Virus record (IMG/VR): IMGVR_UViG_3300035659_001009
Coordinates: 1 to 54,023 of that record
From: a virus
Strand: one strand, 5' to 3'
DNA length: 54,023 nt
Part shown: positions 27,320 through 44,684 of the stretch, in pieces
Layout of the letters: each line of letters starts with the position of its first letter
Position numbering within the stretch: the stretch's first letter is position 1
Translations under genes and position numbers: made by a program
The notes under the pieces: model-generated
The model's database searches: none
What the model was told of the DNA's origin: nothing
Seen by the model: only the letters and a program-made list of their open reading frames with translations

Positions 27320-27330
27320 GGAGGTGCATC

Positions 27331-28560: not shown

Positions 28561-28596
28561 GCCGGGCGGCTTCTTTGTCTGCCGAGGTCGCCCGGC
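28561..28596 (+). promoter_or_regulatory. 8-bp GC hairpin before the basic peptide gene
   Basis: 28561-28568 pairs perfectly with 28589-28596 (GCCGGGCG/CGCCCGGC, 20-nt loop). It lies 20 nt before the ATG and its SD. No U-tract. Confidence 0.5.
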
Positions 28597-28616
28597 CATG
28601 CCACTAAGGAGGTAGT

Positions 28617-28745: not shown

Positions 28746-28754
28746 GGAGGTAGC

Positions 28755-29630: not shown

Positions 29631-29839
29631 TTAGCGTCTGTATTACACTAGTCGCGCTATTGTCTGGATACTTCTACGGACGCAGAAGCTGGCTTGGAGC
29701 TGCAGTTGGTTTAGTCGGGAACATTCTCTGGATCGCATACTTCGTATGGATCGGACAGTATCCATTGATTCTATCGACCTGTCCGTTTCTGATCCAAAAC
29801 GTTTGGAACCTTCACGTAATGCGCAAGAAATCGAGATAA
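29615..29839 (+). CDS. three-span membrane protein, paralogue of the one at 42131
   Basis: A 74-residue protein with three hydrophobic stretches and the core YGRRSWLGAAVGLVGNILWI, then GQYPLILST, NVWNLHVMRKK. The gene at 42131 encodes YGKRSILGPWISILSCIIWC, QYPLLISV and NLWRMSK, clearly the same family. Possibly an envelope protein for exclusion or transport; function unknown. Confidence 0.65.
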   Translation: MQYYVVSVCITLVALLSGYFYGRRSWLGAAVGLVGNILWIAYFVWIGQYPLILSTCPFLIQNVWNLHVMRKKSR

Positions 29840-29935: not shown

Positions 29936-30076
29936 ATAGCAAACGCTCTTATGCTCCTTGCGATAGCAGCAGGAATCTGGATTTTGGTAGTATCACTTGG
30001 ACCGCTTGCGCCGTTCATACTTATCGGCGGAGCGATCATAGCGCTCATTGCCCTTCTGTTATGGAGGCAGACATGA
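29936..30076 (+). CDS. two-span membrane peptide, possibly ATA start
   Basis: The frame (IANALMLLAIAAGIWILVVS, then PFILIGGAIIALIALLLW) ends in TGA overlapping the next ATG. The only in-frame ATG (29951) has no SD, whereas GGAAGG is 9 nt before an ATA at 29936. The RecB-like gene at 32962 shows the same pattern (AGGTGT..., GATAG). Either ATA initiates, or 29951 is used (41 residues). Confidence 0.5.
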   Translation: MANALMLLAIAAGIWILVVSLGPLAPFILIGGAIIALIALLLWRQT

Positions 30077-30822
30077 CAAAGTTGTATGTCGTTGGAAGCA
30101 AAGTAGAGCCACTACTCACGTTCTCGTCTCCACACAATACGGCCTTCTTCCAAGCGTCGTGGTGTCCGCAACCTTTTGCCTCGCTTCCAAAGGTACTCAA
30201 AAGGTGTCGGGTTATCCTCGACGTACAGCACATCTCCGATCACAGTGTTGCCGTTGCAAGTATGGAAGAGGTCGAGACGGCTATCAACGTTCTAAATCCC
30301 AACCTCGTTGTCATCCCCGACGTGCTCATGGACGCCGAAGCAACACTTCAGTCGGCAGTCACCTTCTTCGGAGAGATTCGTAAACTGTTCCCTCATCCAT
30401 CTTTCAACTTCATGTTCGTTCCGCAGGGCAGTACTCTCCCCGAATGGAGACGTTGCCTTTGTGAGTTCTTCGGCTTGCCATTGTGGGGTACTAAACTTGT
30501 AACCACAATTGGTATCCCAAAGATCCTCCACAAGGTCGCAATCAACCAGGGTATCTCCGACTTCCACCGTTTCGAACTCCTTGGCTTCATTCCAAAACCC
30601 CTCAACATACACATGCTTGGGTGTTGGGGTGGTTGGCAAGAAATGGAAGGTCACCAATGTGTCGCGTCCTGGGACACCTCGTTGCCCGTTGCAGCCGCAC
30701 AACGCAACCACTTTATGGCAACGGGAGACGTAAAATGGCAACTCCTCGAAGACGTAGAGGTTGAAGATCCTCGCGTCGTCACATCGAATGCACAGTTCCT
30801 AGCAGAGCGGTTGGGAGGCTAA
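30073..30822 (+). CDS. dpdA: DpdA-like DNA 7-deazaguanine transglycosylase
   Basis: A 249-residue protein, ATG 30073 with GGAGG 6 nt upstream. The TIM-barrel pattern of tRNA-guanine transglycosylase relatives is seen: LVVIPDVLMD (Asp83, base-pocket Asp of the family), FMFVPQGSTLPEW, TTIGIPKILHK, HMLGCWGGWQEM and VASWDTSLPVAAAQ (Asp201, probable nucleophile). Phage DpdA proteins of this size exchange guanine in DNA for a 7-deazaguanine base. With QueC, QueD, QueE and FolE encoded 9-12 kb downstream the pathway is complete. It lacks the zinc site of tRNA enzymes, as expected for DpdA. Confidence 0.75.
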   Translation: MTKLYVVGSKVEPLLTFSSPHNTAFFQASWCPQPFASLPKVLKRCRVILDVQHISDHSVAVASMEEVETAINVLNPNLVVIPDVLMDAEATLQSAVTFFGEIRKLFPHPSFNFMFVPQGSTLPEWRRCLCEFFGLPLWGTKLVTTIGIPKILHKVAINQGISDFHRFELLGFIPKPLNIHMLGCWGGWQEMEGHQCVASWDTSLPVAAAQRNHFMATGDVKWQLLEDVEVEDPRVVTSNAQFLAERLGG

Positions 30823-30823
30823 T

Positions 30824-31039
30824 ATGTGGATCTACATTGATAGCAACTTCGTAACCAAAGTGGCTATTTGGATAATCGTAGTAGCCATAGCAACACTGGT
30901 CGAGAATCTCATTATCAAAGAGGCCGGCGTACAGCTCCCATCAAATCGCACGATACGCATTACGTATCTCCTTGCGGTCAAGGTACCATTTGCGTTCGTT
31001 GCCATACTTGCTGTTGTGCTCTTCTGGAAAGTGGGCTAA
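30824..31039 (+). CDS. two-span membrane protein, 71 aa
   Basis: ATG 30824 right behind dpdA, SD GGGAGG. Hydrophobic segments at about residues 10-30 (VAIWIIVVAIATLVENLII) and 50-68 (VPFAFVAILAVVLFW). Unrecognised. Confidence 0.55.
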   Translation: MWIYIDSNFVTKVAIWIIVVAIATLVENLIIKEAGVQLPSNRTIRITYLLAVKVPFAFVAILAVVLFWKVG

Positions 31040-31087
31040 CTTGGTCATGTCGGAGGGTCATGTTTCTTCTGTTGATGAGAGGTAGCA

Positions 31088-31525
31088 ATGTACATACATG
31101 CATTCGATCCTGGAGAGAACACCGGCTACTGTCTACTTCAGTGCTGTTTAGGGGTAGGTCACATTCATGTTACTGGATCCAAAACGCTGACCCTCTATCA
31201 GGAGCTTGCCTGGGTTGCTGAAACCTTTCAGTCCACGAAGCCCAACATTGTCGTCATCGAGGCTTGGAGACTTTACCCGCACAAGGCGTTGAGCCAGATC
31301 GGATCGAAGATGCCAGCAGCGGAACAGGCAGGCATCATCAAGTACTTGTGTTGGCTGCACAATATCGAGTGGGTCGAACAAATGGCGTCGTGCAAGCAGG
31401 CGTTTGAGAGTCCGAACGTGATCGCACAGGTACTTCCAGGATACACGTTGCCAAAGTCCGAGCACGAGAAGGACGCACTGCGTCATGCGTTGTACTATTG
31501 GTTCAACACAGGGAGACACCAGTGA
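31088..31525 (+). CDS. RuvC-like (RNase H-fold) nuclease
   Basis: A 145-residue protein. It shows the RuvC active-site plan: FDPGENTG with Asp7, NIVVIEAW with Glu58, and SEHEKDALRHALYYW with Asp129 and nearby His residues. It should be a Holliday-junction resolvase or related branch nuclease acting on replication or packaging intermediates. The stop overlaps the helicase start (GTGA). Confidence 0.82.
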   Translation: MYIHAFDPGENTGYCLLQCCLGVGHIHVTGSKTLTLYQELAWVAETFQSTKPNIVVIEAWRLYPHKALSQIGSKMPAAEQAGIIKYLCWLHNIEWVEQMASCKQAFESPNVIAQVLPGYTLPKSEHEKDALRHALYYWFNTGRHQ

Positions 31526-32913
31526 GCAATCAACTCCTTCCACTCCAAGAAGAGGGTGCAAACTTTCTTGCCAAGAGGATGGGTGCATTACTCGAGGACG
31601 AGATGGGTGTAGGCAAGACAGTTCAAGCCATCGTAGGAGCGATGCGGGTGCCCATCGCAGGCCCTATTCTCGTGATCTCTAGACCACTCAACATTGAGTT
31701 CTGGACGAAGACTATCAACACGTGGGATCCGTACGCTGAGGTCGAGGTCGCTACGGGAGGCGAGTTTGATTACAGTAAAGTCCATAGCTGGTTCAGTGGC
31801 AACGGAAGTGGTAGACGACACTACCTCATTATCTACCACGAGATGTTGATGACGCCACGCTCCAGACAAACACACGTTGTCCTCAACGACAGGGCTGCCA
31901 TCCTTAGGCAACTTGGTGTGTGGAGTCTCATTATTGCCGATGAAGCACACCGCTTTGCCTCACGCTCAGCGCAGATGACGAAGTCCTTGTTATCCCTTCA
32001 GACCCTACGCAAGTGGGCACTTACAGGGACGATGATGGACAAGTCGCCCAGAGATTACTGGACAATCCTCCATTGGTTCAACAAGGAGAGATTTGGGTCG
32101 TTTTGGACATTCGCCAAGATGTACACAAAGGAGAGATGGTACAAGCATCGGAAGACTCTTGTGTCAATCAACACCCAAGCATTTGCCAGGGAGCTCGAGC
32201 CATACCGCCTGCGTCGAACTAAAGTCGACGTGAGACCTGACATTCCCACAATCACAAGTGCCGTCGTCAAGGTCGCAATGACGGAGGAGCAAGCCGCTCT
32301 CTACAAGAAAGCTAAGGTTGAGACCTTCCTGCCAACGCACCCTGACCTTGACGATCCCTTGTTTATCAGTGGTGCACTAGCAAGGATTGCCTACCTTAGA
32401 CAGATTGCATTGGACCCTGGTCTCGTGGGAGCAGTTGACATCATCTCTGGTAAGGCAATGTGGCTCTACGACTTCTGTGCGCAACATGGTGAGCCCATGG
32501 TAATCTTCACTACGTCAAGGGAGTTTGCGAATACCCTTCCGACTTTACTCGATGGCTTCGAGGCGATCAGTGGTAGCGTGAAGGTCTTTCAGCGAATGCA
32601 GGTCGTTAAGAGATTCCGAAGTGGAGCCATCCGTGGTATCGTAGGTACAATCGCAACGATGTCCGAGTCGATCAACCTCAAAGAGGCTAAGATGGCGATC
32701 TTTGCTGACTCGCACTGGTCGACAAGATCAATGGATCAAGCCGCAGCCCGTATCCATCGCATCGACTCGGAACATCCCGTCGAGATCTTATACTTGCAGA
32801 CTCCAGGAACGGTCGATACTCTTATCGCCAGTACGATCGACGAAAAGAGATCGGTAAGGTATCTTCTCGAATCCTACCTCAAACACATTAGAGAGGAACG
32901 TCGCATCCTATGA
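31522..32913 (+). CDS. SNF2/DEAD-type superfamily 2 helicase
   Basis: A 463-residue protein; GTG 31522 with AGGGAG upstream chosen over a TTG 8 codons earlier. Motif I EDEMGVGKT (residues 25-33), motif II IIADEAHRF (DEAH at 140-143), motif III ALTGT, motif V/VI TMSESINL and QAAARIHRID. This is the compact SNF2-like helicase common in phage replication modules; it translocates on duplex DNA and may remodel forks or restart replication. Confidence 0.88.
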   Translation: MSNQLLPLQEEGANFLAKRMGALLEDEMGVGKTVQAIVGAMRVPIAGPILVISRPLNIEFWTKTINTWDPYAEVEVATGGEFDYSKVHSWFSGNGSGRRHYLIIYHEMLMTPRSRQTHVVLNDRAAILRQLGVWSLIIADEAHRFASRSAQMTKSLLSLQTLRKWALTGTMMDKSPRDYWTILHWFNKERFGSFWTFAKMYTKERWYKHRKTLVSINTQAFARELEPYRLRRTKVDVRPDIPTITSAVVKVAMTEEQAALYKKAKVETFLPTHPDLDDPLFISGALARIAYLRQIALDPGLVGAVDIISGKAMWLYDFCAQHGEPMVIFTTSREFANTLPTLLDGFEAISGSVKVFQRMQVVKRFRSGAIRGIVGTIATMSESINLKEAKMAIFADSHWSTRSMDQAAARIHRIDSEHPVEILYLQTPGTVDTLIASTIDEKRSVRYLLESYLKHIREERRIL

Positions 32914-32961
32914 GACGATGTTTCAAGTTCCTATGTACACAGTATAGATAGGAGGTGTGAG

Positions 32962-34065
32962 ATAGAATTCCATATTTCAGACATCAAGAAGTTTAAGGCA
33001 TGTAGGCAGGACTGGAACTACTCTAGTCCCTTGAGAATGAACCTAGCGCTACACAGGACACCGATTCACTTCTTTCTTGGTAAGGGTGTGCACTATGCGC
33101 TCGCCAGTTACTATGAAACGGGTGAGACTCCCGTCGACGCCTTCGATAGGTGCGTCGCGTTCTTCAAGCAGCGTGAAGGTCATCTCTGGGGGGCAAAGAC
33201 TGTTGAAGCGGTTCATCTTGGGCATGCAATGTGCATGTCATACCATTCATGGGTCACGGGCCCTCTGCAACCAGACTTGAAGTGGAAAGTTCTCGCAACG
33301 GAGATCTCCTTCGGACCAATACGGCTTCCCGTTCCCTATGCACCATACTACAGCATGAAGTACAAGCTCTCAGGTCGCTTCGACCAAGTCCTAGAAGACA
33401 AGGATGATGGTAACCTTTGGCTTCGCGAGTTCAAGACGACGTCCAGAGCACCCGTTCAGAGTTGGTTGGACAACGACGACCAGCTAACTAGTTATGCGTG
33501 GGCAATACAGCAAGTGCTTGGTAAGCCGGTGGTAGGAATCCAGTACCGCTTCTTGATGAAAAAGGCACCCGAGAGCCCTCCGCTAGTACAGAACGGTAGC
33601 CGCCTGAGCAAGGCTATACACTCTAACCTGGCGACGACTTACGACCTCTACCTGGCTGCAATCAAGGAGCATGGCTTCAACGAGGCCGACTACAGAACCG
33701 AACTTGACGAACTGTTGTGGAAGGGATGGAGCGAGTACATCTTCGAGATTCCATCCATGCGTAGTCAGAGTGCTCTACAGGTCGCCGCCGGCAACCTCTA
33801 CCTGACGGCTCACGACATGGACCACAACCCAACTATCTATCCTTCGCCGGATTGGATACGTTGTCTGTGGTGTTCATTCAACTCACCATGCCAGGCAGCT
33901 CAGGAGGGCCATCCGGAGTTAGAGGAGAAGATCCTGGCCGAGGAGTACGGCCCCCAGTACCGCGAGAAGACCGAAGAGATTGATGCCTTCATACCAGGCG
34001 ACGAAGGTGACGGGATCGACGCAGACCTTGTTGCACAAGAAATAACCTTTGACGAAGGAGGATGA
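32962..34065 (+). CDS. RecB/Cas4-like PD-(D/E)XK nuclease with Fe-S cysteines, apparent ATA start
   Basis: The conserved part starts before any ATG: IEFHISDIKKFKACRQDWNY is the usual N-terminus of this family including the first cluster Cys. The only SD-matched codon in phase is ATA 32962, 6 nt after GGAGG. Nuclease motifs: SGRFDQVLED (metal Asp) and WLREFKTT (E-x-K). The C-terminal CLWCSFNSPC supplies the other three Cys for a 4Fe-4S cluster. About 367 residues. Such exonucleases trim ends for recombination together with the neighbouring Sak4-like ATPase. Confidence 0.82.
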   Translation: MEFHISDIKKFKACRQDWNYSSPLRMNLALHRTPIHFFLGKGVHYALASYYETGETPVDAFDRCVAFFKQREGHLWGAKTVEAVHLGHAMCMSYHSWVTGPLQPDLKWKVLATEISFGPIRLPVPYAPYYSMKYKLSGRFDQVLEDKDDGNLWLREFKTTSRAPVQSWLDNDDQLTSYAWAIQQVLGKPVVGIQYRFLMKKAPESPPLVQNGSRLSKAIHSNLATTYDLYLAAIKEHGFNEADYRTELDELLWKGWSEYIFEIPSMRSQSALQVAAGNLYLTAHDMDHNPTIYPSPDWIRCLWCSFNSPCQAAQEGHPELEEKILAEEYGPQYREKTEEIDAFIPGDEGDGIDADLVAQEITFDEGG

Positions 34066-34066
34066 A

Positions 34067-34357
34067 GTGAACCGAATCGTGTCGTTGGTTTTGCTAGTCG
34101 CATTCTTACTAACCTTCGCAACCGCGTGCGATGACGAACCAGAGTTCTGTAAGGGAGATGCCGTGTGTACGAGTGGGGCATGTGGTGGTTGCGAAGCCAA
34201 GATTGTACTAGGAGGTGCATTATGCACCCTGGCAGCTTACCTCAGCTGGGTAGTATCTACCCAAAGGCAAAGTTTTGGGTCTTTGCACGTGGCCCATTCT
34301 GTGTCTCTGGCACAGTTACTTGGGTTCACGCTGACGAAGACAAGAACATCGTCTTAG
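34067..34357 (+). CDS. putative lipoprotein, 96 aa
   Basis: GTG 34067 with AAGGAGG. N-terminal signal MNRIVSLVLLVAFLLTFATA is followed by Cys (lipobox TATAC-like: FATAC), then an acidic Cys-rich stretch (DDEPEFC, CTSGACGGC) and a second hydrophobic segment. Its last 45 codons overlap the next gene in another frame, so its true end may matter less than its start. Envelope location likely; function unknown. Confidence 0.5.
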   Translation: MNRIVSLVLLVAFLLTFATACDDEPEFCKGDAVCTSGACGGCEAKIVLGGALCTLAAYLSWVVSTQRQSFGSLHVAHSVSLAQLLGFTLTKTRTSS

Positions 34358-34473
34358 GTAACGGGTTTGCAGGGGCGTTTGATTGCATCGCCTCCCTGTT
34401 CGACGGCGAAAGGGCAGAGTTCGACGTTGCGGGTGGTCGTCTGAGCTTGTACCTAACACTTGGTGTGGGATGA
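34222..34473 (+). CDS. hypothetical protein, 83 aa
   Basis: ATG 34222 with AGGAGG 6 nt upstream, overlapping the lipoprotein gene. Beta-rich with aromatic strands (AKFWVFARGPFCVSGTVTWV) and GERAEFDVAGGRLSLYLTLG. Its stop overlaps the HNH start (ATGA). Unrecognised. Confidence 0.5.
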   Translation: MHPGSLPQLGSIYPKAKFWVFARGPFCVSGTVTWVHADEDKNIVLGNGFAGAFDCIASLFDGERAEFDVAGGRLSLYLTLGVG

Positions 34474-34847
34474 ACAGGGATGACGTGTGGGTTGTCGACG
34501 ATAAGCCAGGTAAGTACCAGAAGGAAGCCATACGAGATGGCTATCTATGGGACGAGGTCCGTGGGCTCCCTGTTCATCGAGCCCTTGCCATCGACTTTGT
34601 AGACTCCCGGACCTTGGAATCGTGGGAGCATGTCCACCACATAGATGGTATCAAGTCGAACAACGACCCACACAATCTCATCATCATTCACAAGTGGATA
34701 CACCTAGCGATACACGCAACAATCGCGATGGCACCGTATTTGCTACGGTCCGGGATTTCACCGATGCAACTAAGAGGTCCGGATTCGCTAGTCGGGCTCT
34801 TGCGAGAGGCAGGAGTACCGTTCATCTGGCTAGGAGAAAAGAAATGA
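34470..34847 (+). CDS. HNH endonuclease (HNH_3 type)
   Basis: A 125-residue protein from ATG 34470. The core WEHVHHIDGIKSNNDPHNLI, then HKWIHLAIH is the His-His/Asn/His pattern of phage HNH_3 homing endonucleases without zinc Cys. The N-terminal segment with RDGYLWDEVRGLPVHRALA carries the domain that precedes HNH in these enzymes. It overlaps both neighbours by 4 nt, so it is embedded in the recombination operon. Confidence 0.8.
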   Translation: MNRDDVWVVDDKPGKYQKEAIRDGYLWDEVRGLPVHRALAIDFVDSRTLESWEHVHHIDGIKSNNDPHNLIIIHKWIHLAIHATIAMAPYLLRSGISPMQLRGPDSLVGLLREAGVPFIWLGEKK

Positions 34848-35644
34848 GGTCATTCAAACCTGAATCGGCGTTCGCGAAAATTATGTTCTATGGTGACCCA
34901 GGAACAGGAAAGACAACGCTCCTGGGGACGGGGATGGAAGATCCTCGTACGACTCCAATGCTTTGGTTAGATTGTGGTGGCAACCCGGAATCGATCCGCC
35001 ACAATGCACACCTACCAACCATCCTTCATATTGACAGAATCGACGACCTCAACGCTCCGCATGACTGGCTGCTCAAAGGTCAACCCGACAAGCACCCTTT
35101 CGTCACCATGTGCGAGAAGCTCGAGGTCCAGCTCACACCCCCATACAAATCTATCGTTGCCGTCGATTGTATGACTGAACTCCAACGCATGTACATCAAG
35201 AAGTTCTCCGGCAACGCTGACAAGCATCCCGGCGACGAGCTAGCGGCGGTGGAGCTCCGCGAGTGGGGTACCACTCTGATGGCGCTCATCAACATGATCT
35301 CGCAGTACAAACAGCTACCGATGCACGTTTTCACTACATGCCACGAGGACGAGCGGAGGGACAAGAGTGGTGCCTACCTTCGTTCTACTGTCTGGCTATG
35401 GGGTCAGGGTAGGGTCGAAGTTCCTGCCTACATGTTAGCACAGATCCGCCTCGTCCGCACAAATGAGATCCCGGCCGACATGAGGACCAAGCTGGCTGAG
35501 CGTGGCCAATCCGACGCAATCAACATCGCGTACTTTGATCAGCTAGGTCCATTCGACGCCAAGCAACAGTACGTGGCAAAGAGACTAGGATGGATGCCTG
35601 CTCCAACCCTGAGCAAGGTCCTAGACGTACTGGAGATCAAGTAG
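34844..35644 (+). CDS. RecA-fold AAA ATPase, Sak4-like
   Basis: A 266-residue protein, ATG 34844 with TAGGAGAAAAG. Walker A FYGDPGTGKTTLL (residues 16-28), then LWLDCGGNPESI, and Walker B SIVAVDCMTEL. This is the short single-domain RecA-like ATPase that phages encode beside an SSB-like protein; Sak4 members anneal single strands. It lies between the RecB-like nuclease and the SSB-like gene, consistent with a phage recombination module. Confidence 0.78.
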   Translation: MRSFKPESAFAKIMFYGDPGTGKTTLLGTGMEDPRTTPMLWLDCGGNPESIRHNAHLPTILHIDRIDDLNAPHDWLLKGQPDKHPFVTMCEKLEVQLTPPYKSIVAVDCMTELQRMYIKKFSGNADKHPGDELAAVELREWGTTLMALINMISQYKQLPMHVFTTCHEDERRDKSGAYLRSTVWLWGQGRVEVPAYMLAQIRLVRTNEIPADMRTKLAERGQSDAINIAYFDQLGPFDAKQQYVAKRLGWMPAPTLSKVLDVLEIK

Positions 35645-35651
35645 CGTGTTC

Positions 35652-35689
35652 AGCCGTGGACCTCGGGATAGGACGAGGCTCCTACGGCT
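35652..35689 (+). promoter_or_regulatory. hairpin before the SSB-like gene
   Basis: AGCCGT (35652-35657) pairs with ACGGCT (35684-35689), enclosing a CCTCG/CGAGG stem. It may separate expression of the ATPase from the abundant SSB-like protein. No U-tract. Confidence 0.5.
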
Positions 35690-35729
35690 TGCACAAACCA
35701 AACCCAAACGAAAAAAGGAGTAACTGAAC

Positions 35730-36233
35730 ATGTCTGACCTTACCGTTCATGATCCAATCTTCCCCGTTCCCAGCGCGACTATCGAGGAAGAGTTCGTAGT
35801 CATCACACCTGCCGGCGGCGGGGCCGAGAACGATGCCGACGAGTTCGTGGTCGACTTTACCGGTGTTGGTGAGATTCCGGTGGGAGTTGCCCTCCTAAAG
35901 GTTACCGGCATGAAGGGTGCAACCTCAACAGCCGGCAACAGGATGATCAACATGGAGTTCACCATCATCGACATGCCAGCATCGCCCCAGTTCATCAACA
36001 AGAAAGTCTGGGAGACTTGGATGCTCGAGACGGACGCCAAGTTCCGGACCTACGACGGCTACGAAGCCTTCACCGGCGTCGAGCCCGAGAAGGGTTCCTT
36101 CCGTATCGTCAAGAGCGAGGTTCTGGGGCAAGAAGCTTGGTGCCGACTGGAGTTCAAGAAGGCGGCCAAAGCCGAGTACCGCGACGCAGCCCGCATCGCC
36201 AGGTACGGCGCCAAGTCACCTTACGACGCCTAA
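35730..36233 (+). CDS. DUF669/SSB-like protein
   Basis: A 167-residue protein, ATG 35730 with AAAAGGAG. After an acidic N-terminus, the beta-barrel-like region GVALLKVTGMKGATS, NRMINMEFTIID, FINKKVWETWML resembles the DUF669 / gp2.5-like proteins encoded after Sak4-type ATPases. It probably coats single-stranded DNA during replication and recombination. The C-terminus is not acidic, unlike bacterial SSB; assignment is by position and pattern. Confidence 0.6.
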   Translation: MSDLTVHDPIFPVPSATIEEEFVVITPAGGGAENDADEFVVDFTGVGEIPVGVALLKVTGMKGATSTAGNRMINMEFTIIDMPASPQFINKKVWETWMLETDAKFRTYDGYEAFTGVEPEKGSFRIVKSEVLGQEAWCRLEFKKAAKAEYRDAARIARYGAKSPYDA

Positions 36234-36255
36234 ACCCAAACTCACCTAGAATCCA

Positions 36256-36279
36256 GGGAGCCAGCCTATCCTGGCTCCC
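36256..36279 (+). promoter_or_regulatory. 9-bp perfect hairpin before the primase gene
   Basis: GGGAGCCAG (36256-36264) and CTGGCTCCC (36271-36279) form a perfect stem with a 6-nt loop. It ends 10 nt before the ATG of the primase gene, so it overlaps the ribosome landing area and could limit initiation or attenuate transcription. Confidence 0.6.
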
Positions 36280-36289
36280 ACGAGGCATC

Positions 36290-38683
36290 ATGTTTGATAT
36301 CATCTTCAAGGATCCACCTCAGGGTACGTTCATAGAGATATGGCAACCAGCGATCAGCCCCCCTCGCAGGTACATTCCAGCTTCAACGGAATTCATCGAT
36401 ACAGGTAACACAGAGATAGACACATACTTCGGTGTCGCCCTTCGTAAATCTCGAGGGTCCGAGAAGGCCGACGTCTACGGAACTAGAGTTCTCTGGGTCG
36501 ACGTCGACAATACAGAGTTCAACATCAACCAATGTACCTATCCACCAAGTATCATCGTGCACAGTGGTGGTGGATGGCATCTGTACTGGGCGCTCACTAC
36601 CTGGTGTGTTGACCAGGAGGTTATCGAAAATGCAAACAAAGCTCTTGCTGACGACGTTGGGGGTGATTCGTGTTTCAACGTCAATCGTTTTCTACGTGTT
36701 CCAGGTACAATCAATACGAAATATTCTGGTGTTCGGGCTCAGCTTCGCCAGCAACGCCAAGTGGCGTATGACATTTGCGACTTCAAGGTACTTGCAGCTC
36801 TCGATGGTAAGACGAGACATAAGGTTAGAACTGGAGACACCAGAGGTTATGGAGGTGATCGATCGCGCCGTGACTGGGCAATCATTACATCTCTTCTCAA
36901 TAGTGGAGCGTCAGAACGACTTATCCGAACGCTTTATACGTTTCAACCCTGCGGCGATAAGTATCGTGATCCCCATACTAACGCCGAAGACTATATTGTA
37001 CATACTTTGGAACGGGCTCACGCGAAGGGTGAGGCCAAGAAAACGTTCGGGATAACAGAAACCGATACAGGTTACTTCATAGAAACAGCCAAGGGTCGCC
37101 GTCCCCTATCGACATTCATCTTAGTGCCCACTCTACTCTTGCAGGGTGATACCGATGAAGACAAGAATGCAGAAGATGCAATAGTATGTGATGTCAAAGC
37201 AGAAGGTCATGTATGGATGGAAGTCAAGTTCCGTCGTAGTGCTTTCAACAGTCGTAGAGACATTGACAAGACGCTGAACGCGTTGGCGTGGGTTTGGCTT
37301 GGTAAGGACGATGACATCAGAGCGCTACTCCCGTACTTACTTCAACAACTCCAAGATAAGGGCCTACCCAAGACCCGAGCAACCACAGTCCTCGGTCGTC
37401 ACAAGGAGTACTATGTTGGGCCAACACAATGTATCTCCAAAGATACTTGTGTCGATGGTGTACAGGCTCCCTACGTGTATCTCGACCTCGGAAGGGAACA
37501 TCCTCGTACTCGGTATATCCCCGACGAGGGGGGTGTTGACTGGAAAACAATTCCGCAGATCAACGTCCCTGAAGTCATTTGGCCAATTATTGGTTGGTAC
37601 ATGGCCTGTCCGTACAAGACCCACTTCGAAGCCGAGAACCTTAGGTTCCCCATTCTGAACTTGTATGGAACCAAAGGCTCCGGGAAGACCGCGACCCTAC
37701 GCATAATGCAGCGCCTAATGGGGTACTGTGAACCGCGTACATGGGATTGCACCACGACACGCTTTTCGATGTTGGCGATACTAGGCTCGTCGAATACAAC
37801 TCCCGTCTCGTTCTCTGAATATAGAGCATCAATCCAACAGACGATATTGCGGTTCATCCTTATGGCATACGACTCTGGTCATGACGTTAGAGGTCGTGCC
37901 GACCAGACAACAACCGACTACCCACTCATTGCTCCATTCACAGTCGATGGTGAGGACCAGGTTGCAGACGCTGCAGCTATGGAAAGGATAATAGCAGTCC
38001 ACCCCTCTCCATCGACAATCGTAGAGGGGTCTGAACATTACCATCAGTTCCTTGCCTTGGAGTCTCAACCTCTTGAACAGTTCGCGCTTGGGTATATCCA
38101 ACATACACTGAAAACAGCACTTAGCCCTTATCTTATTCGGGCCCGAGAGTTAGTACTCAAAGCGTTTCCCATGCCGCTACCGACTCGTGTCAGGAACAAC
38201 ATGATTGTGATCACCGTCGGCGTCCTTTCATTTTGCGAACATACAAACGTATTGGTACCTGACATGGGGGTGTGCCTTGACCACGCTCTAAGGAGCGTCT
38301 GGACGCCGGAGATGGGTCGCGGCAAAGTGGCAGCAGATGAGTTCATCGAGGCTGTCGTGAACAATGCGGCACGGAGGAGGACTGACTTCTTCTGGAAAAT
38401 GGAAGGTTCGGGGATACTTCGTTTCCAACTGGCTACGGCGTACTTCTGGTGGCAAAGGAATCGTAGGCTTGCTGGTGCCCCCGTACTCGACCGAGAAGCA
38501 ATCAAGCAACAGCTGTATGAACGAGACGTCGCCACAGGGAACAAGGGCCAGTACATAGTCAAGCCCACGAATGTAGATGGTATGTGGGCCTTCGGGATTG
38601 ACCTGACTAAAGCGGCCGAGTCGGGTCTTGACATCTCCACCAACATTCTCCGGGCCAATGTCGAGACATTCGAGGTGACATAA
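36290..38683 (+). CDS. archaeo-eukaryotic-type primase fused to helicase
   Basis: A 797-residue protein from ATG 36290; the much longer open frame upstream only shadows the SSB gene. The primase part has WVDVDNTE (metal Asp71 and Asp73), the nucleotide-binding His motif SGGGWHLYW (92-100), and NRFLRVPGTINTK. A middle region follows, then an ATPase with Walker A LYGTKGSGKT (458-467) and a Walker B-like VSFSEYRASI. It should make primers and unwind DNA at the fork together with PolA. Confidence 0.82.
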   Translation: MFDIIFKDPPQGTFIEIWQPAISPPRRYIPASTEFIDTGNTEIDTYFGVALRKSRGSEKADVYGTRVLWVDVDNTEFNINQCTYPPSIIVHSGGGWHLYWALTTWCVDQEVIENANKALADDVGGDSCFNVNRFLRVPGTINTKYSGVRAQLRQQRQVAYDICDFKVLAALDGKTRHKVRTGDTRGYGGDRSRRDWAIITSLLNSGASERLIRTLYTFQPCGDKYRDPHTNAEDYIVHTLERAHAKGEAKKTFGITETDTGYFIETAKGRRPLSTFILVPTLLLQGDTDEDKNAEDAIVCDVKAEGHVWMEVKFRRSAFNSRRDIDKTLNALAWVWLGKDDDIRALLPYLLQQLQDKGLPKTRATTVLGRHKEYYVGPTQCISKDTCVDGVQAPYVYLDLGREHPRTRYIPDEGGVDWKTIPQINVPEVIWPIIGWYMACPYKTHFEAENLRFPILNLYGTKGSGKTATLRIMQRLMGYCEPRTWDCTTTRFSMLAILGSSNTTPVSFSEYRASIQQTILRFILMAYDSGHDVRGRADQTTTDYPLIAPFTVDGEDQVADAAAMERIIAVHPSPSTIVEGSEHYHQFLALESQPLEQFALGYIQHTLKTALSPYLIRARELVLKAFPMPLPTRVRNNMIVITVGVLSFCEHTNVLVPDMGVCLDHALRSVWTPEMGRGKVAADEFIEAVVNNAARRRTDFFWKMEGSGILRFQLATAYFWWQRNRRLAGAPVLDREAIKQQLYERDVATGNKGQYIVKPTNVDGMWAFGIDLTKAAESGLDISTNILRANVETFEVT

Positions 38684-38802
38684 TGGCTGACACACTAGCA
38701 GAAAAGGCAAAGAGACAAGAAGCACAAAGGCTCGCGAAGCTAAAGGCTGAGCTCGCGAAGATGAGGAAAGAGAAGCGACCCAAACCTAAACAAGGAGGTT
38801 GA
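38683..38802 (+). CDS. lysine-rich helical peptide, 39 aa
   Basis: ATG 38683 overlaps the primase stop (TAATG). Sequence MADTLAEKAKRQEAQRLAKL then RKEKRPKPKQGG is a charged amphipathic helix with a basic end. The last codons form the SD of the next gene. Unrecognised. Confidence 0.55.
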   Translation: MADTLAEKAKRQEAQRLAKLKAELAKMRKEKRPKPKQGG

Positions 38803-38803
38803 A

Positions 38804-38998
38804 ATGGATGTCAGAGATCGCTACATTCTGAGGAGTTGGTGGAAGAAACTAGAGGAACTGGGTTCCGCCGCTACTGAGTTGGAATCCCCATATCAGGCAG
38901 AAAAAGCAAACGTACGGGCAGAGGTCGTCGTAGACGGTGAGACGAGGATCTACCAACTCAATCGTGGTACTCTTCAATTCAACAAAGTACGGAAGTAG
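38804..38998 (+). CDS. hypothetical protein, 64 aa
   Basis: ATG 38804 with AAGGAGG. A helical first half (RDRYILRSWWKKLEELGSAA) and strands at the end (AEVVVDGETRIYQLNR). Not recognised; it precedes the preQ0 gene cluster. Confidence 0.55.
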   Translation: MDVRDRYILRSWWKKLEELGSAATELESPYQAEKANVRAEVVVDGETRIYQLNRGTLQFNKVRK

Positions 38999-39043
38999 CC
39001 ACGCCAACGGCTTGTTGGCCATTCGGTTCGAAAGGGTGCAAAA

Positions 39044-39814
39044 ATGTCGAAAGCAATGGTTCTATTATCGGGTGGGATCGACTCAGCGACGACCCTCGCT
39101 ATGGCGCTGAGGGCCTGTGACGAGGCTGAGGCCGCGTCGTTCTACTATGGGTCGAAGCACAACAACGTGGAGTCAGACGCAGCTCTGGCTGTCGCAAAGT
39201 ATTATAAGATCAAGAGGCACTACATCGTGTTACCGGACATCTTCGGTGGTGCGGGGAGTGCTTTGATGGGCGAAGTCGAAATGCCTGTCTTGACTTACAA
39301 GGAGATTGACGAGGGCGTTGGCCCCTCGCCGACCGTCGTGCCGTTTCGCAACGCCAACATGCTCTCCATGGCAACAACGCTTGCGATTACCAACAAGTGC
39401 GACTTCGTCTACGCTGGCATGCATGCAGAAGACGCACACCACTGGGCTTACCCAGATTGTAGCCCGGAATTCATCGGTGCGATGGCCAACGCCATCTATG
39501 TGGGCAGCTACCACGAAGTTCGCCTCATAACTCCCATTGAATGGATGATGAAGGCTGATGTTGTGTACTCCGCACTCCACTTGAAGGTGCCGCTAGGTTT
39601 GACCTGGTCGTGTTACGATCCCAAATTACAGACCGAACCCAGTACAATCAAAGGATACCTACCAGTGGCATGTGGCAAATGTCCGACTTGCGTGGAACGA
39701 ATCAACGCCTTCAAGGTGAATGAACTGATCGACCCAATCGTGTACGACATCCCAATCGAGTGGCCAGACTGGTTTTGTCGCTACCCACGGTTTCCAGGTA
39801 GCGAGGAGGTTTGA
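39044..39814 (+). CDS. queC: 7-cyano-7-deazaguanine (preQ0) synthase QueC
   Basis: A 256-residue protein. PP-loop ATP pyrophosphatase motif LLSGGIDSATT (residues 7-17), then YYGSKHN, PFRNANMLSMA, and the zinc site from WSCYDP plus CGKCPTC near residue 220. It converts 7-carboxy-7-deazaguanine to preQ0 with ATP and ammonia. It is the first of four clustered preQ0 genes. No amidotransferase fusion is present, so preQ0 rather than the archaeosine-type base is the expected product. Confidence 0.92.
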   Translation: MSKAMVLLSGGIDSATTLAMALRACDEAEAASFYYGSKHNNVESDAALAVAKYYKIKRHYIVLPDIFGGAGSALMGEVEMPVLTYKEIDEGVGPSPTVVPFRNANMLSMATTLAITNKCDFVYAGMHAEDAHHWAYPDCSPEFIGAMANAIYVGSYHEVRLITPIEWMMKADVVYSALHLKVPLGLTWSCYDPKLQTEPSTIKGYLPVACGKCPTCVERINAFKVNELIDPIVYDIPIEWPDWFCRYPRFPGSEEV

Positions 39815-39815
39815 C

Positions 39816-40265
39816 ATGCCATACATGCGAATAGGTAAATCGTATACTTTCGATGCTGCACATCAGCTCGAAGGGCACATGGGCAAGTGTCGTAACTTGC
39901 ATGGTCACACCTACACCGTCGAGGTCTGGCTTAAAGGAAGCGTTTACAAAGTGCCTGGGGCCACCGATGATGGAATGGTGATGGACTACGGCGAGCTCGA
40001 TTCGTTTGTGAAACCGATCATCGATGCCATGGACCACTCCTTCCTCACCAACGACTACGAGTCCACGTACTTAGCGTTGATCCTCCAGGGAACAGAACTC
40101 AAGTATTTCCACTTGGGCGCGCGAACCACGGCCGAGAACATTGCGACCTACATTGGAGATGCATTAGTCAAGGCTATGCCATCCAACATCAAAACGCTAG
40201 GCGTGCGCGTCTCGGAGACCCCAAAGTCGTTTGCTGAGTACGTCGTGAGGGTAGACCAATGTTGA
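39816..40265 (+). CDS. queD: 6-carboxy-tetrahydropterin synthase QueD
   Basis: A 149-residue protein. Zinc His residues at 16 (FDAAHQL), 29 and 31 (CRNLHGHTY), catalytic Cys25, then MVMDYGELDSF, MDHSFLT, ARTTAENIA and RVSETPKSF, which carries the pterin-binding Glu. It turns dihydroneopterin triphosphate, made by FolE, into 6-carboxy-tetrahydropterin. Translationally close to queC (1-nt gap). Confidence 0.92.
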   Translation: MPYMRIGKSYTFDAAHQLEGHMGKCRNLHGHTYTVEVWLKGSVYKVPGATDDGMVMDYGELDSFVKPIIDAMDHSFLTNDYESTYLALILQGTELKYFHLGARTTAENIATYIGDALVKAMPSNIKTLGVRVSETPKSFAEYVVRVDQC

Positions 40266-40327
40266 TCTGGATTGGCGTTGTTATATTTGTCATTGTACTC
40301 TTTGCAGTGATCTCGGCAGGAGGCTAA
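40259..40327 (+). CDS. single-span membrane micropeptide, 22 aa
   Basis: ATG 40259 overlaps the queD stop. MLIWIGVVIFVIVLFAVISA is one transmembrane helix; the last codons GGAGGC form the SD of the next gene. It could be only a coupling element, but codon order and composition fit a membrane peptide. Confidence 0.4.
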   Translation: MLIWIGVVIFVIVLFAVISAGG

Positions 40328-40328
40328 C

Positions 40329-40586
40329 ATGAAGGTCACACTTCGATTTAGTAATGGCAACCACGCTTCGACTCTCGATGTCGACTGCATTGAAGTAATC
40401 CCAGAACCCAATACCAACATCGAGATTCACAACGGGTTCTTTGCTAACCGACTCATAGATGTTACCTTTCCTCGAGGTCAAGGGGTCGTCATCGAGTATG
40501 CACAACTGATAGGCCCCGAGGCAGCGAGAATCACGGTACACGCGATGAACGAGGAGGCTAAGCATGAACACATATCCGATCAATGA
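40329..40586 (+). CDS. hypothetical protein, 85 aa
   Basis: ATG 40329 with AGGAGGC. Mostly beta strands (KVTLRFSNGNHASTLDVDCI, RLIDVTFPRGQGVVIEYAQL), ending EEAKHEHISDQ across the start of queE. No known motif. Confidence 0.5.
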   Translation: MKVTLRFSNGNHASTLDVDCIEVIPEPNTNIEIHNGFFANRLIDVTFPRGQGVVIEYAQLIGPEAARITVHAMNEEAKHEHISDQ

Positions 40587-41319
40587 GGTGTTTGGCCCAA
40601 CGTTGCAAGGCGAGGGTGTGTTCGTTGGTCAGATCGTGAAGTTTGTACGATTTACTGGTTGCAACTTTAGCTGCGATTGGTGTGACACCAAGTACGCAGT
40701 CGACCCAAAGTACCCGGGATGGAGCGTAATCCATATGACAGTCGGCGAGATCGTCGAATCGCTCAGGGTACTCCCCGGCGAAGCAGGCTGGGTTGTACTC
40801 TCGGGAGGGAACCCCTCACTATTCCTCGACGACGAGTTGGTGATGGCCTTACACCAAGCGGGCTACAAGATATCGATGGAGACACAGTGGATTCCCAAGT
40901 ACACCAACGCCGTCATCGCTATCGACCACTTGGTCTATTCACCAAAGCCTCCCAGTAGCGGAATGAGATCGATGTACGACAGAGAACAATGGGATATCAT
41001 CGCACAGGTCGTCGTCGATCGCTGTATCAAGAGGGGTAAGGGCTCAACATCGATAAAGACTGTCATCTTCACTCGCGACGATCTTGGGTTCGCGAAGATG
41101 GCTGAGGAGGAGATCACAGTCCGTGTACCCATGGATGACGGCTGGATTCCATTGGTTCTCTCCGTAGGCACACCCCTACAATCAGACAACATTGTCACCG
41201 ACATTGTTGCGTCAACCCTCAAGATTCTCGACATGGTCAAGGCGGATCCGTACTTCAAGAACCATAGGATCGTGCCCCAGTTACATGCAATGCTCTGGGG
41301 CCGAAGAAGAGGAGTATAG
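40564..41319 (+). CDS. queE: 7-carboxy-7-deazaguanine synthase QueE (radical SAM)
   Basis: A 251-residue protein. N-terminal EVFGPTLQGEGVFVGQ, then the cluster loop CNFSCDWCDTKY with Cys33, Cys37 and Cys40 in the short-form CxxxCxxC spacing, WVVLSGGNPSL (SAM binding) and METQWIPKY. It converts 6-carboxy-tetrahydropterin to 7-carboxy-7-deazaguanine, the QueC substrate. Confidence 0.92.
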   Translation: MNTYPINEVFGPTLQGEGVFVGQIVKFVRFTGCNFSCDWCDTKYAVDPKYPGWSVIHMTVGEIVESLRVLPGEAGWVVLSGGNPSLFLDDELVMALHQAGYKISMETQWIPKYTNAVIAIDHLVYSPKPPSSGMRSMYDREQWDIIAQVVVDRCIKRGKGSTSIKTVIFTRDDLGFAKMAEEEITVRVPMDDGWIPLVLSVGTPLQSDNIVTDIVASTLKILDMVKADPYFKNHRIVPQLHAMLWGRRRGV

Positions 41320-41423
41320 TGGATTACTTACTCTATGGATTGTGTGTTATAATCTCGGTAGAGTTCGCCATACTCAACTGGCTTGCTGACAAAGTAACGA
41401 AGCTGTTCAGAAGGCGGCGATGA
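41319..41423 (+). CDS. single-span membrane peptide, 34 aa
   Basis: GTG 41319 overlaps the queE stop, GGAG upstream. A transmembrane helix (LLYGLCVIISVEFAILNWLA) followed by a basic end (KLFRRRR), so the C-terminus faces the cytoplasm. Unrecognised. Confidence 0.5.
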   Translation: MDYLLYGLCVIISVEFAILNWLADKVTKLFRRRR

Positions 41424-41593
41424 ACCTCGGGGCCTACACGACGATGGGTGGACTCGTCGGACTGACCCTCATAGTTATGTTACTCGTCATTGCAGCCGAG
41501 GGGGTGGTTAGCCAGACCATCGACTGGTTAACAGTACAATATAGGAGATGGAAACATGACAAAAAGAAAGCCCAACACCGCCACGAAAAGTGA
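41420..41593 (+). CDS. single-span membrane protein, 57 aa
   Basis: ATG 41420 overlaps the previous stop. A hydrophobic segment (GGLVGLTLIVMLLVIAAEGV) and a strongly basic cytoplasmic tail (YRRWKHDKKKAQHRHEK) that overlaps the folE start in another frame. Unrecognised. Confidence 0.5.
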   Translation: MNLGAYTTMGGLVGLTLIVMLLVIAAEGVVSQTIDWLTVQYRRWKHDKKKAQHRHEK

Positions 41594-42134
41594 CCAGGAT
41601 CTTATGGTGACCATCCTGAACCACATGTTCCCAGAGTTCAGGTGGGATGACTCAGTAGAGCGTACGGCGGAGAGATTCCTCGCGTACCTCGAAGAGTACT
41701 CGATGGCGGCAACGTTCGAGCCACCTTTCCAAGCCACAGTATTCCCTACCAAAGTGAACCAGATGATTGCTGCTGGTCCAATATCCTTCAGTTCCATATG
41801 TAAACACCATCTATTGCCCTACGTGGGCTATGCATGGACAGCATACCTCCCCAACAAGCTCATGATTGGTGCAAGCAAGATGCCCCGCATCGTTCAATGG
41901 TGCGCGACAAAGCCCACGACACAGGAAGAGCTCACCGCCGAGATCGCAACGTACCTAAAGAACAAACTCGAAGCCCAGGGTGTTGCTGTCATCATGGTGG
42001 CCAAGCATACCTGTATGTCGTGTCGTGGAGTTCGTGAACGCGAGGCCAATCTCGTTACGTCCGAGATGCGGGGGGCCTTCCTAAGCAATGCAGCCGCCAA
42101 GGCCGAGTTCATGCACTTCGTGAGGCTGCCATGA
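41556..42134 (+). CDS. folE: GTP cyclohydrolase I FolE
   Basis: A 192-residue protein, shorter than the bacterial enzyme (about 220). Signatures: SSICKHHLLPYVGYAW with zinc ligands Cys82 and His85, IGASKMPRIVQW, and AKHTCMSCRGV with Cys153. It makes 7,8-dihydroneopterin triphosphate from GTP, the first step of preQ0 synthesis. ATG 41556 with TAGGAGATGG. It overlaps the membrane protein downstream. Confidence 0.92.
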   Translation: MTKRKPNTATKSDQDLMVTILNHMFPEFRWDDSVERTAERFLAYLEEYSMAATFEPPFQATVFPTKVNQMIAAGPISFSSICKHHLLPYVGYAWTAYLPNKLMIGASKMPRIVQWCATKPTTQEELTAEIATYLKNKLEAQGVAVIMVAKHTCMSCRGVREREANLVTSEMRGAFLSNAAAKAEFMHFVRLP

Positions 42135-42364
42135 GCTGGTTTCTATCGGGATTGGCGACGGGAGTAGGACTGCTCTCAATGTGGTACTACGGAAAGAGAT
42201 CCATACTGGGACCTTGGATCAGCATACTCTCGTGCATCATCTGGTGTGTGTTCATTGGCTACACCCAACAGTACCCGTTGCTAATCTCGGTAGTACTCAA
42301 CCTCATCATAAGCCTTGTGAATTTGTGGAGGATGTCGAAGAATGGAAAAGGCCCCACACGCTAA
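42131..42364 (+). CDS. three-span membrane protein, paralogue of the one at 29615
   Basis: A 77-residue protein. MWYYGKRSILGPWISILSCI and GYTQQYPLLISV followed by NLWRMSKNGKG align with the 74-residue protein at 29615-29839. Two copies in one phage, both in the early unit, suggest a function in pairs or in different complexes. Unknown role. Confidence 0.65.
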   Translation: MSWFLSGLATGVGLLSMWYYGKRSILGPWISILSCIIWCVFIGYTQQYPLLISVVLNLIISLVNLWRMSKNGKGPTR

Positions 42365-44684
42365 CTGTGATGCATGTCCTCTCCGACAGCAACCCATGGT
42401 TCCGACGGAGCTGCATGAGGGTGCTAAGTACTGGATTGTTGCCGAGTCGCCGTGGAAGACCGAAGTAGATCAAGGATTAGCCCTAGTAGGTCAGTCAGGA
42501 CAGTTCTTCTGGAAGACGTCAGGCCTGTCTCGTGAAGAATGCAACATCACGAACGCAGTATTATGTATGCCTCCAGCACTCGATGAAACTAAGAAAGAGA
42601 TTCTGGAAGCTGCGGCTTCGTGCTGCCGCCCTCGTCTCTTATCCGAGCTCACACCCCTACCTACTCTTATCACTGGTGAAGTTGCACGCGATGCTGTTCT
42701 AGGTCCTGAGGACAAGCACACCTCCAAGACAACAATCCATGGCCGCTGGGTTGGCAATGCACTGAGCACATATCATCCCAGTGCGGTTATGCGTGACCCC
42801 GATATTGCCCGAGATTATCTTACAGATTTGCGTAAGTTCAAAAAAGGCCCAAAATCGCCTTTATCTACACCAGGTTTTGAAGTAATAAAAGACTTAGGCA
42901 AATTACTAGGATTTTCTGAATATTCGTATGACCTAGAGACCGACCAGACGAACTTCATGTCTGATGACATTCTCTGCATGGCGGTTGCCGTCGAAACAGG
43001 AAAGGTCTTTATCGTCCCCGGAGCACACCCCCAGACTCCAGGTGACCTCCTCTACTCCACTAAAGACTCCGTGTTCTGGAAAACGTTCTGGTCTCAGCCA
43101 CAGGCACAATACATTGGACACAATGCCAAGTTCGATATGAAGTTCCTTCGCTACCAACTCGAACATGGCGCCGTGTGTACTTTTGATACGATGCTTGCAC
43201 ACAATGCACTGGACGATCGATCCGAAAAGGAAGAAGGATCCGCGACTCGGGCTCGGTCATATCATGACCTAAAGGGCCTAGCTGCTAAGCACCTCGATGT
43301 TCCTGACTACGAAGTCGGACTCCATCAGTATCTCAAGAGCCGGAACGATCAGTACTCTAAGATACCATGGGGTGTGCTCTGCCAGTACGTCGCATGGGAC
43401 GTCACGTGTACACTTGGCCTCAAGCACATATTTGAGGCCCAGCTTCGGGGAACACCTCCCGGTAAACTCTTCTACGAGACCCTTATGCCTATGGAGGAGA
43501 TGTACACCCAGGCTGAGATTGAGGGACTGCAGGTTGACAGAGAGTACCTCCAGAAGGAAGGTGACGAGTTCAATGTAGAGCTCGCCCAGATCGAGAACGA
43601 GTTCCTTGCTATGGCCTCTCCCCACGTTACGAACCTGAACTCTCCACCTCAGATGTCCCACTACTTCTACGACGTACTTGGGCTACCACATCCTGAGGGT
43701 CGAAAGGTAAAACCTAACTCGACGAATAAGGACGCTCTGATGCAACTAAAGGGCAAGCATCCTGCGGTCAGCCTCCTGTCAAGGCATCGTAAGATCGAGA
43801 AGATGAGGGCGTCATATGCTGACAACCTTCTCGAGGTACTCGACTACTACGACTTGGCGCACTACGACACCAAGATTGGTGGAACGGAAGTGGGTAGGAT
43901 CTCGGTTAGAAACCCTGCGATCCAGACCGTTCCCCGTTCGGGTGAACCCTATGGCAAGTTAGTCAAAGATGCGTATATTGCCCGGAAGGGGTGTGTCCTC
44001 CTTGCTGCAGACGTCTCCCAGGCTGAACTAAGAGTTGCAGCGGCCTACTGTGGAGATCCGTTCCTCATTGGTGTATATCGGGATGGTAGGGACCTTCATA
44101 CTGAAGTTGCCATCGCAATGTATGGTCTGAAGTATACCAAGGAACAGCGAGTCCTGTGCAAGATGTTCAACTTCTCGTGGGTGTACGGTGGCAACGAGTT
44201 TAGCTTTGCGCAGGATGCTGGCTTACCTATTGACGTTGCTAGAAACTTCGTTGCTAAGTATAACAAGCTTATGCCCGTTCTCGTCGCGTTCAAAGGAGAG
44301 TGCTTCGATACAATGAAGAAGAAGGGGTATGTCGAGTCGAGGTTTGGTAGGCGCCGCCGAATCCCTTACATCAACGACGTAAACATCAAAGATGCAAGGA
44401 AAGCGGCTCTGCACGCGTTGGTGGCAGGCTCTGCCTCTGATATGGTTGAGCATGCAGCGCTAGACATTAGACCCGTGATTGCTGATGTGTGTCATGGCAA
44501 CTTTAGAATGTCCGTCCACGATTCAATCATATTTGAGGTACCAGAGCAGTATAAGGACGAAGCTGCTAGACTGGCTGTGGGGGCTCTACTCGATGCGGGA
44601 GGTAAGTACTTCCCTGAAGTAGTGTGGAAGGCAGATGCGGAGGTTGGTTATAGATGGGGTACAATGGAAAAGATGCACGTATAA
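42342..44684 (+). CDS. polA: family A DNA polymerase with N-terminal uracil-DNA-glycosylase-like domain
   Basis: A 780-residue protein. Residues 1-165 resemble a family 4 uracil-DNA glycosylase: CDACPL (Cys9, Cys12), VAESPWKTEVDQ and LVGQSGQFFWK, NAVLCMPP (Cys75), SCCRP, TYHPSAVMRD. The 3'-5' exonuclease follows: SYDLETDQ (Asp197, Glu199), YIGHNAKFD (Asp265), YVAWD (Asp353). Polymerase motif A is LLAADVSQAELR (Asp557), motif B RVLCKMFNFSWVYG (Arg603, Lys607, Phe611), motif C VHDSIIFEV (His726, Asp727). Phe611 suggests normal dideoxynucleotide discrimination. A similar fusion is known from phage SPO1. Replicative polymerase. Confidence 0.9.
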   Translation: MEKAPHANCDACPLRQQPMVPTELHEGAKYWIVAESPWKTEVDQGLALVGQSGQFFWKTSGLSREECNITNAVLCMPPALDETKKEILEAAASCCRPRLLSELTPLPTLITGEVARDAVLGPEDKHTSKTTIHGRWVGNALSTYHPSAVMRDPDIARDYLTDLRKFKKGPKSPLSTPGFEVIKDLGKLLGFSEYSYDLETDQTNFMSDDILCMAVAVETGKVFIVPGAHPQTPGDLLYSTKDSVFWKTFWSQPQAQYIGHNAKFDMKFLRYQLEHGAVCTFDTMLAHNALDDRSEKEEGSATRARSYHDLKGLAAKHLDVPDYEVGLHQYLKSRNDQYSKIPWGVLCQYVAWDVTCTLGLKHIFEAQLRGTPPGKLFYETLMPMEEMYTQAEIEGLQVDREYLQKEGDEFNVELAQIENEFLAMASPHVTNLNSPPQMSHYFYDVLGLPHPEGRKVKPNSTNKDALMQLKGKHPAVSLLSRHRKIEKMRASYADNLLEVLDYYDLAHYDTKIGGTEVGRISVRNPAIQTVPRSGEPYGKLVKDAYIARKGCVLLAADVSQAELRVAAAYCGDPFLIGVYRDGRDLHTEVAIAMYGLKYTKEQRVLCKMFNFSWVYGGNEFSFAQDAGLPIDVARNFVAKYNKLMPVLVAFKGECFDTMKKKGYVESRFGRRRRIPYINDVNIKDARKAALHALVAGSASDMVEHAALDIRPVIADVCHGNFRMSVHDSIIFEVPEQYKDEAARLAVGALLDAGGKYFPEVVWKADAEVGYRWGTMEKMHV

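Follow-up and report, generated by a model that had tools for sequence, protein, structure and literature searches.

Phages that encode synthesis of the modified base preQ0 (7-cyano-7-deazaguanine) together with the DNA-guanine transglycosylase DpdA, and that have no amidotransferase, carry the corresponding deoxynucleoside (dPreQ0) in their DNA, at ~32% of Gs in CAjan and ~28% in Rosebush (PMC6884629). For CP220 and CPt10, replacement of 100% of dG by dADG, the amide of dPreQ0, is reported (PMC8306585). Here we describe a system of this kind in IMG/VR virus record IMGVR_UViG_3300035659_001009, positions 1 to 54,023, the whole of which (54,023 nucleotides) is referred to below as the window; it contains folE, queD, queE and queC at 39–42 kb and a small, divergent dpdA candidate at 30.1 kb. 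A virus of microbes is encoding a DNA-guanine modification pathway, a known system, with a divergent DpdA-like enzyme, and we put at about 0.87 the probability that this virus synthesises a 7-deazaguanine base of its own and exchanges it into its DNA. The record is linear and possibly a fragment, and all absences reported here therefore apply within the window.

Genes for preQ0 synthesis

The four genes queC, queD, queE and folE are intact and contiguous on one strand (39044–42134), and each scores above the Pfam curated cut-offs, with PHROGs names in agreement. All are on the plus strand: queC (7-cyano-7-deazaguanine synthase, 256 amino acids) at 39044–39814 (Pfam QueC, E 1.1e-47); queD (6-carboxytetrahydropterin synthase) at 39816–40265 (PTPS, E 1.7e-32), with the motif CRNLHGH; queE (7-carboxy-7-deazaguanine synthase, a radical S-adenosylmethionine enzyme) at 40564–41319 (Radical_SAM, E 7.5e-7; PHROG 'QueE-like', 4.1e-32), with CNFSCDWC; and folE (GTP cyclohydrolase I) at 41556–42134 (GTP_cyclohydroI, E 1.2e-45). 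The interval between queD and queE is occupied by an 85-residue open reading frame (ORF; 40329–40586, plus strand) with no family match in Pfam or PHROGs. With all four genes intact and over the cut-offs, the complete preQ0 pathway that the initial annotation had placed at 39–42 kb is upheld, and by the known chemistry of these families FolE, QueD, QueE and QueC would convert GTP to preQ0.

The canonical motifs of QueC, as set out in PMC13329287, are SGGxDS, VPxRN, YPDC and a tyrosine after the first zinc cysteine. The window protein retains SGGIDS, VPFRN, YPDC, CY and CGKCPTC, and in our alignment it also has the equivalents of Y35, R99, Y131 and Y189, given as essential in E. coli by the same source. 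The canonical YxQxHxxE reads YGSKHNNVE—YGSKH recurs in other aligned phage QueCs—and the first and second zinc cysteines are separated by 19 residues where ~8 is canonical. A related record with the same gene order as the window (L012) has a zinc-cysteine loop that is likewise expanded.

A QueC-like protein (Cap9) and a member of the tRNA-guanine transglycosylase (TGT) family (Cap10) are also described as components of type IV cyclic-oligonucleotide-based antiphage signalling systems (CBASS; PMC11996544, PMC13329287), and QueC and the TGT-like protein of the window might similarly attach a deazaguanine to protein. The window, however, encodes the full FolE-QueD-QueE-QueC set, its QueC signature is canonical, and the neighbours are replication genes (no dedicated library was used to look for CBASS genes); we consider attachment to protein extremely improbable.

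No match to either QueF profile, PF14819 or PF14489, is present in the window (0 of 1 for each). QueC, at 256 residues, has no amidotransferase domain, so that a Gat-QueC fusion is not seen, and ArcS was not searched for by name. The lack of QueF and Gat-QueC noted in the initial annotation thus holds for the window, and preQ0 is the likeliest base.

Detection of a small DpdA candidate

The dpdA candidate, assigned from a family profile, the TGT fold and an aligned active site, lies at 30073–30822 on the plus strand and encodes a small putative DNA-guanine transglycosylase of 249 amino acids. A GGAGG ribosome-binding site, read directly from the sequence at 30063–30067 (plus strand), stands five bases ahead of its ATG, and for this reason we prefer the start at 30073 to that of the longer ORF at 30061. 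Single-sequence searches with the protein gave no Pfam family and no solved structure, and the best E-value in PHROGs was 0.03. A tblastn search of 50,697 phage records returned one match, to Chryseobacterium phage MA9V-3 (27.7%, 7e-5), and this opened the route to a family of small DpdA-like proteins: from MA9V-3 the search extends to Cellulophaga phage phiST, Flavobacterium phage immuto and Bacillus phage BSP7, and from BSP7 to Weizmannia phage Youna2, to Brevundimonas phages and to Campylobacter phages, CP220 among them. The immuto member was annotated by its depositors as a DNA guanine transglycosylase, DpdA.

A leave-out profile was built from 16 phage relatives, excluding both the window protein and its closest relative (from record L026), and was run on a set of 1,252 six-frame frames made up of reversed decoys and of frames from the window, L026, L013, 9g, nt-1 and E. 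coli. It recovers the dpdA candidate at E 1.1e-23, the sole ORF of the window to be matched, and the L026 protein at 4.8e-41; nt-1 DpdA2 follows at 0.0032, all others are at 1.8 or above, and the best reversed decoy has an E-value of 8. The selection of members is partly dependent on the window, since some were found by searching with it, but the profile itself contains no letters of the window. Against the PDB, a profile of 18 members matches the DNA-guanine transglycosylase 7ui4 at E 6.8e-7, the runner-up being at 0.12. The small and distant DpdA-like protein proposed at 30.1 kb is thus recovered by the leave-out profile where single-sequence searches fail, and there is a high probability that it is a DNA-guanine transglycosylase.

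Fold, phylogeny and active site of the candidate

An AlphaFold2 model of the protein, made with 10 sequences, has a predicted local distance difference test score of 82.2 and a predicted template modelling score of 0.84. The best 50 matches listed by Foldseek are all TGT (best E 1e-7), as are the best 50 listed by VIA-align (Z 15.3–16.0 over 229–233 residues), the best of which is a tRNA-guanine transglycosylase with Z 16.0 and a root-mean-square deviation of 3.6 over 229 aligned residues. Because high Z scores are common in the VIA-align list (Z is at least 8 in 960 of 999 chains), it is the TGT-only top of the list and the profile that jointly carry weight. In BFVD the phiST protein is the best match (1.5e-11), and nt-1 DpdA2 is also among the matches listed. 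The initial annotation had suggested asking whether the protein matches a DpdA/TGT fold at all; the fold is found, both through the profile hit to 7ui4 and in the AlphaFold2 model.

A tRNA-guanine transglycosylase fold would also suit a protein acting on tRNA, in which case the que genes would serve to raise queuosine in host tRNA. However, TGT is ~370 residues long as against 249 here and is characterised by a CxCxxC zinc motif, which is absent from the 249-residue sequence (only CLC, residues 128–130, is present); QueF was not found, yet bacterial TGT uses preQ1; and the best solved match of the family profile is a DNA-guanine transglycosylase (7ui4). Phages with que genes and no recognised DpdA have been proposed to boost host queuosine (PMC6884629), but for this virus we regard action on tRNA as very unlikely.

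In a phylogenetic tree, nine DpdA1 rows of the 9g/CAjan type form one clade (100/100) with the window protein outside it, and the window protein groups with that of L026 (100/96). Most internal branches within the small family are poorly resolved, and nt-1 DpdA2 is a single row among them, on a branch of length 4.62 and of uncertain placement.

Nine residues—D50, D83, T91, R166, H180, L182, G183, D201 and N239—are invariant in all 18 aligned members, the window protein among them, and the window protein retains D50, D83, Q118-G119, H180-x-L-G183 and D201. In weak pairwise alignments, D201 aligns to FDCV of E. coli TGT and D50 to LDSG of 9g DpdA, with D83 near LDGIGD. Judging by alignment and fold, and by catalytic roles that we presume to carry over from TGT chemistry, D201 would be the likely nucleophile and D50 the likely general acid/base, with the base held by D83 and Q118.

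The sequence following D50 sets the window protein apart: 16 of the 18 members have D-N-[GS] at this position, the window has D-V-Q-H, and L026 and L027 have D-W-Q-H. D-N-[GS] is thus frequent among members, although it is not known to be a defining trait. The window and L026 proteins are 37% identical, and since the motif is shared at this distance, the change is an old one that has been kept. No third D-[VW]-Q-H lineage was found in the genome_contigs or viral_contigs collections; D-x-Q-H occurs at three loci in viral_contigs, a near-identical record of the window and the two known copies. A bacterial home for the sub-lineage was considered and set aside, as none of the 82 pattern matches in genome_contigs is a relative.

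An altered motif at D50 and a long terminal branch (1.46 changes per column) are also what might be expected if the protein were a catalytically dead relic, in a virus whose DNA is unmodified or is modified by a host enzyme. Yet D-x-Q-H and the other active-site residues are kept in L026 at 37% identity, and the reading frame is open. Because L026 keeps the change along with the other active-site residues, D-x-Q-H looks selected, not decayed, and a relic is highly improbable. D-[VW]-Q-H would be the one concrete sign of the new target specificity that the initial annotation had thought possible. That the sub-lineage constitutes a distinct enzyme, with a rebuilt loop, the fold and catalytic aspartates kept, and a base or DNA context unlike that of characterised DpdA, seems to us rather unlikely. 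The 249-residue protein provides a natural active-site variant for comparison with the D-N-[GS] forms.

Several observations weigh against exchange of a deazaguanine into DNA by this protein. D50, where D-N-[GS] has become D-V-Q-H, is the presumed catalytic residue, and the change could affect activity or specificity; dpdA is also 8 kb away from the que genes. The 249-residue protein is matched neither by the Pfam families for DpdA (PF23859) and TGT (PF01702) at E≤1 (0 of 1 for each) nor by any PHROG at E≤0.001, and the leave-out profile does not match the 9g DpdA ORF. The Pfam cut-offs mark a limit of detection and do not describe a biochemical property. When the family profile is aligned by hhalign to individual sequences (E. 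coli TGT, 9g DpdA and nt-1 DpdA2), the matches are weak, the aligned segments being consistent with the motif mapping and no proof by themselves. A QueF or an amidotransferase may also lie beyond the window, the record being perhaps a fragment.

The small DpdA family and related virus loci

The family of small phage proteins probably corresponds to the 'DpdA3' reportedly described by Cui et al. 2023. In seven of the eight phage records examined, que or folE genes lie no more than a few kb from the small dpdA (MA9V-3, phiST, immuto, BSP7, Youna2, StAshley and Vibrio phage D479), the distance to folE being ~3 kb in MA9V-3 and ~2 kb in D479. The phiST record has no QueC match, from which it follows that the small family may use more than one base. 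CP220 has no que or folE gene near its small dpdA, and a QueC match is found elsewhere in the record. Its family member is a 'hypothetical protein' at 4932–5708 of L044. Campylobacter phages were in 2019 among those listed as without DpdA (PMC6884629); by family membership of the predicted protein, these phages, formerly listed as DpdA-less, possess one.

Related loci were also compared by their primases. Of 19 loci in the alignment, 14 with near-full-length matches were kept and five matching ~70–116 residues were left out. Two or more que/folE genes are present in all 14, and a small dpdA in 10, of which eight were detected by searching with the window protein (E≤1e-3) and two (L035 and L037) by a family panel at E≤0.05 only; in the other four (L012, L029, L031 and L033) the contigs stop near the expected position of dpdA. 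The 14 loci are not independent viruses, and several are copies of one virus. L025 is a near-identical record of the window, the L026 and L027 DpdA proteins are identical, and the queC matches are identical for L028 and L029 and for L033 and L035. There is no QueC match in the L034 record.

Two PHROGs labelled 'unknown function' are matched by members of the family, PHROG 20335 by 14 of the 18 and PHROG 19058 by eight of the 18, and both can now be interpreted as families of DNA-guanine transglycosylases. DNA modification of the preQ0 type extends in this way to virus lineages whose key enzyme escapes curated models.

Base and extent of replacement

Through TGT-type chemistry, the small DpdA would replace guanine in the DNA of the virus with preQ0. 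Because neither QueF nor an amidotransferase was seen, the modified nucleoside should remain dPreQ0 or its amide dADG, and preQ0 or ADG is the base that we expect. By analogy with CAjan and 9g, the purpose would be protection from host restriction enzymes, many of which a heavily replaced genome would resist.

Cui et al. 2023 reportedly linked a subfamily, DpdA3, to complete replacement. The expectation in the initial annotation that part of the guanines is replaced has become doubtful, because the small family holds the CP220 protein and CP220 is reported to be 100% replaced. With the window protein in the family of CP220, replacement would be expected to be extensive instead of confined to long motifs; this is the least certain step of the proposed mechanism, and close to an even call. 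Partial modification of the CAjan type, restricted to short motifs and with preQ0 at ~1/3 of guanines, would agree with a gene content equal to that of CAjan and Rosebush, for which the partial values cited above are reported (PMC6884629). The CAjan/9g DpdA forms a separate clade (100/100), however, and the window protein groups with the family of CP220, whose DNA is reported to be fully replaced (PMC8306585). Palindromic hexamers are hardly depleted in the window (observed/expected 0.94, compared with 0.78 in 9g and 0.74 in CAjan), a weak point given that relatives range from 0.68 to 1.06; with relatives so variable, palindrome avoidance was abandoned as an indicator of full or partial replacement. 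We rate partial modification at somewhat less than an even chance, and judge near-complete replacement to be at least as likely as motif-limited replacement, with a slight lean to near-complete.

An over-represented octamer

The initial annotation had also singled out the octamer GGGTGTGC as over-represented and as a possible DpdA target. Its over-representation stands, with 17 copies in the window where Markov models of order 2 and order 4 predict 1.5–3.1; the sites are scattered on both strands between 191 and 48228, with the extended form GGGGTGTGC[TC]. The role as a DpdA target does not, and was rejected, for the density of the octamer is independent of dpdA: the overlapping records G001 and G002, with no QueC match and no small-DpdA match, contain 30 copies in 47.8 kb and 15 in 25.9 kb respectively (one each for a reversed-pattern control), and the L026 and L027 records, which have the closest dpdA, contain 0 and 1. 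The small-DpdA search of G001 and G002 lacked a positive control, which makes this negative weaker than the one for QueC, and the two records are not independent, since the stretches compared are 100% identical over 13,090 bases. The L012 record, from a relative at ~50% protein identity, has five copies in 11.8 kb; in it, as in G001 and G002, the density equals or exceeds that in the window. GGGTGTGC is probably a separate signal that does not follow dpdA. It is enriched in the records of the window, L012, L040 and L041 and not in other relatives, and could be a host-linked (Chi-like) or a viral signal.

Other features of the window

Two small membrane-protein paralogues, 37.5% identical to each other, are found at 29615–29839, just upstream of dpdA, and at 42131–42364, overlapping the end of folE. 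They are weakly PnuC-like (PF04973, E 0.0028 for the 42131–42364 copy) and were not found in those loci of other viruses that were compared. A DNA polymerase A gene at 42342–44684 is fused to an N-terminal domain of the uracil-DNA-glycosylase superfamily (PF03167, E 3.2e-16), and several glycosyltransferase-like genes, GT2 and GT4-like ones among them, follow one another at 984–8773 on the minus strand. The octamer CTAAGGAG, which resembles a ribosome-binding site, occurs 14 times in the window against 1.0 expected, and repeats D2 and D4, which are related to it, lie at 21896–28757.

Comparison with known systems

The TGT of Zymomonas mobilis has the same fold as the window DpdA (Z 16.0 over 229 residues), but the two are only 9–10% identical, and the window protein is ~120 residues shorter and has no CxCxxC. 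The bacterial DpdA 7ui4, a chain of 436 residues, was found through the family profile only and not with the window protein alone; the profile match covers residues 176–289 and includes HLLG and SIDS.

CAjan and 9g, with DpdA1, share FolE, QueD, QueE, QueC and a DpdA with the window, and CAjan is likewise without an amidotransferase, whereas 9g, unlike the window, has Gat-QueC and makes dG+ (PMC6884629). Their DpdA is larger than that of the window and belongs to a separate clade (100/100).

Closest is the small DpdA family of phiST, MA9V-3, immuto, CP220 and BSP7, whose members are ~240–290 residues long and share the nine invariant residues with the window protein. The window DpdA is 18–23% identical to the small DpdA of these isolates and has D-V-Q-H as against D-N-[GS] (16 of 18); dpdA in the isolates is usually beside folE or queE and a DNA polymerase gene, whereas in the window it is 8 kb upstream of the cluster. 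The window DpdA thus adds a new and divergent member to a known system, and its single unusual trait is the rebuilt active-site loop.

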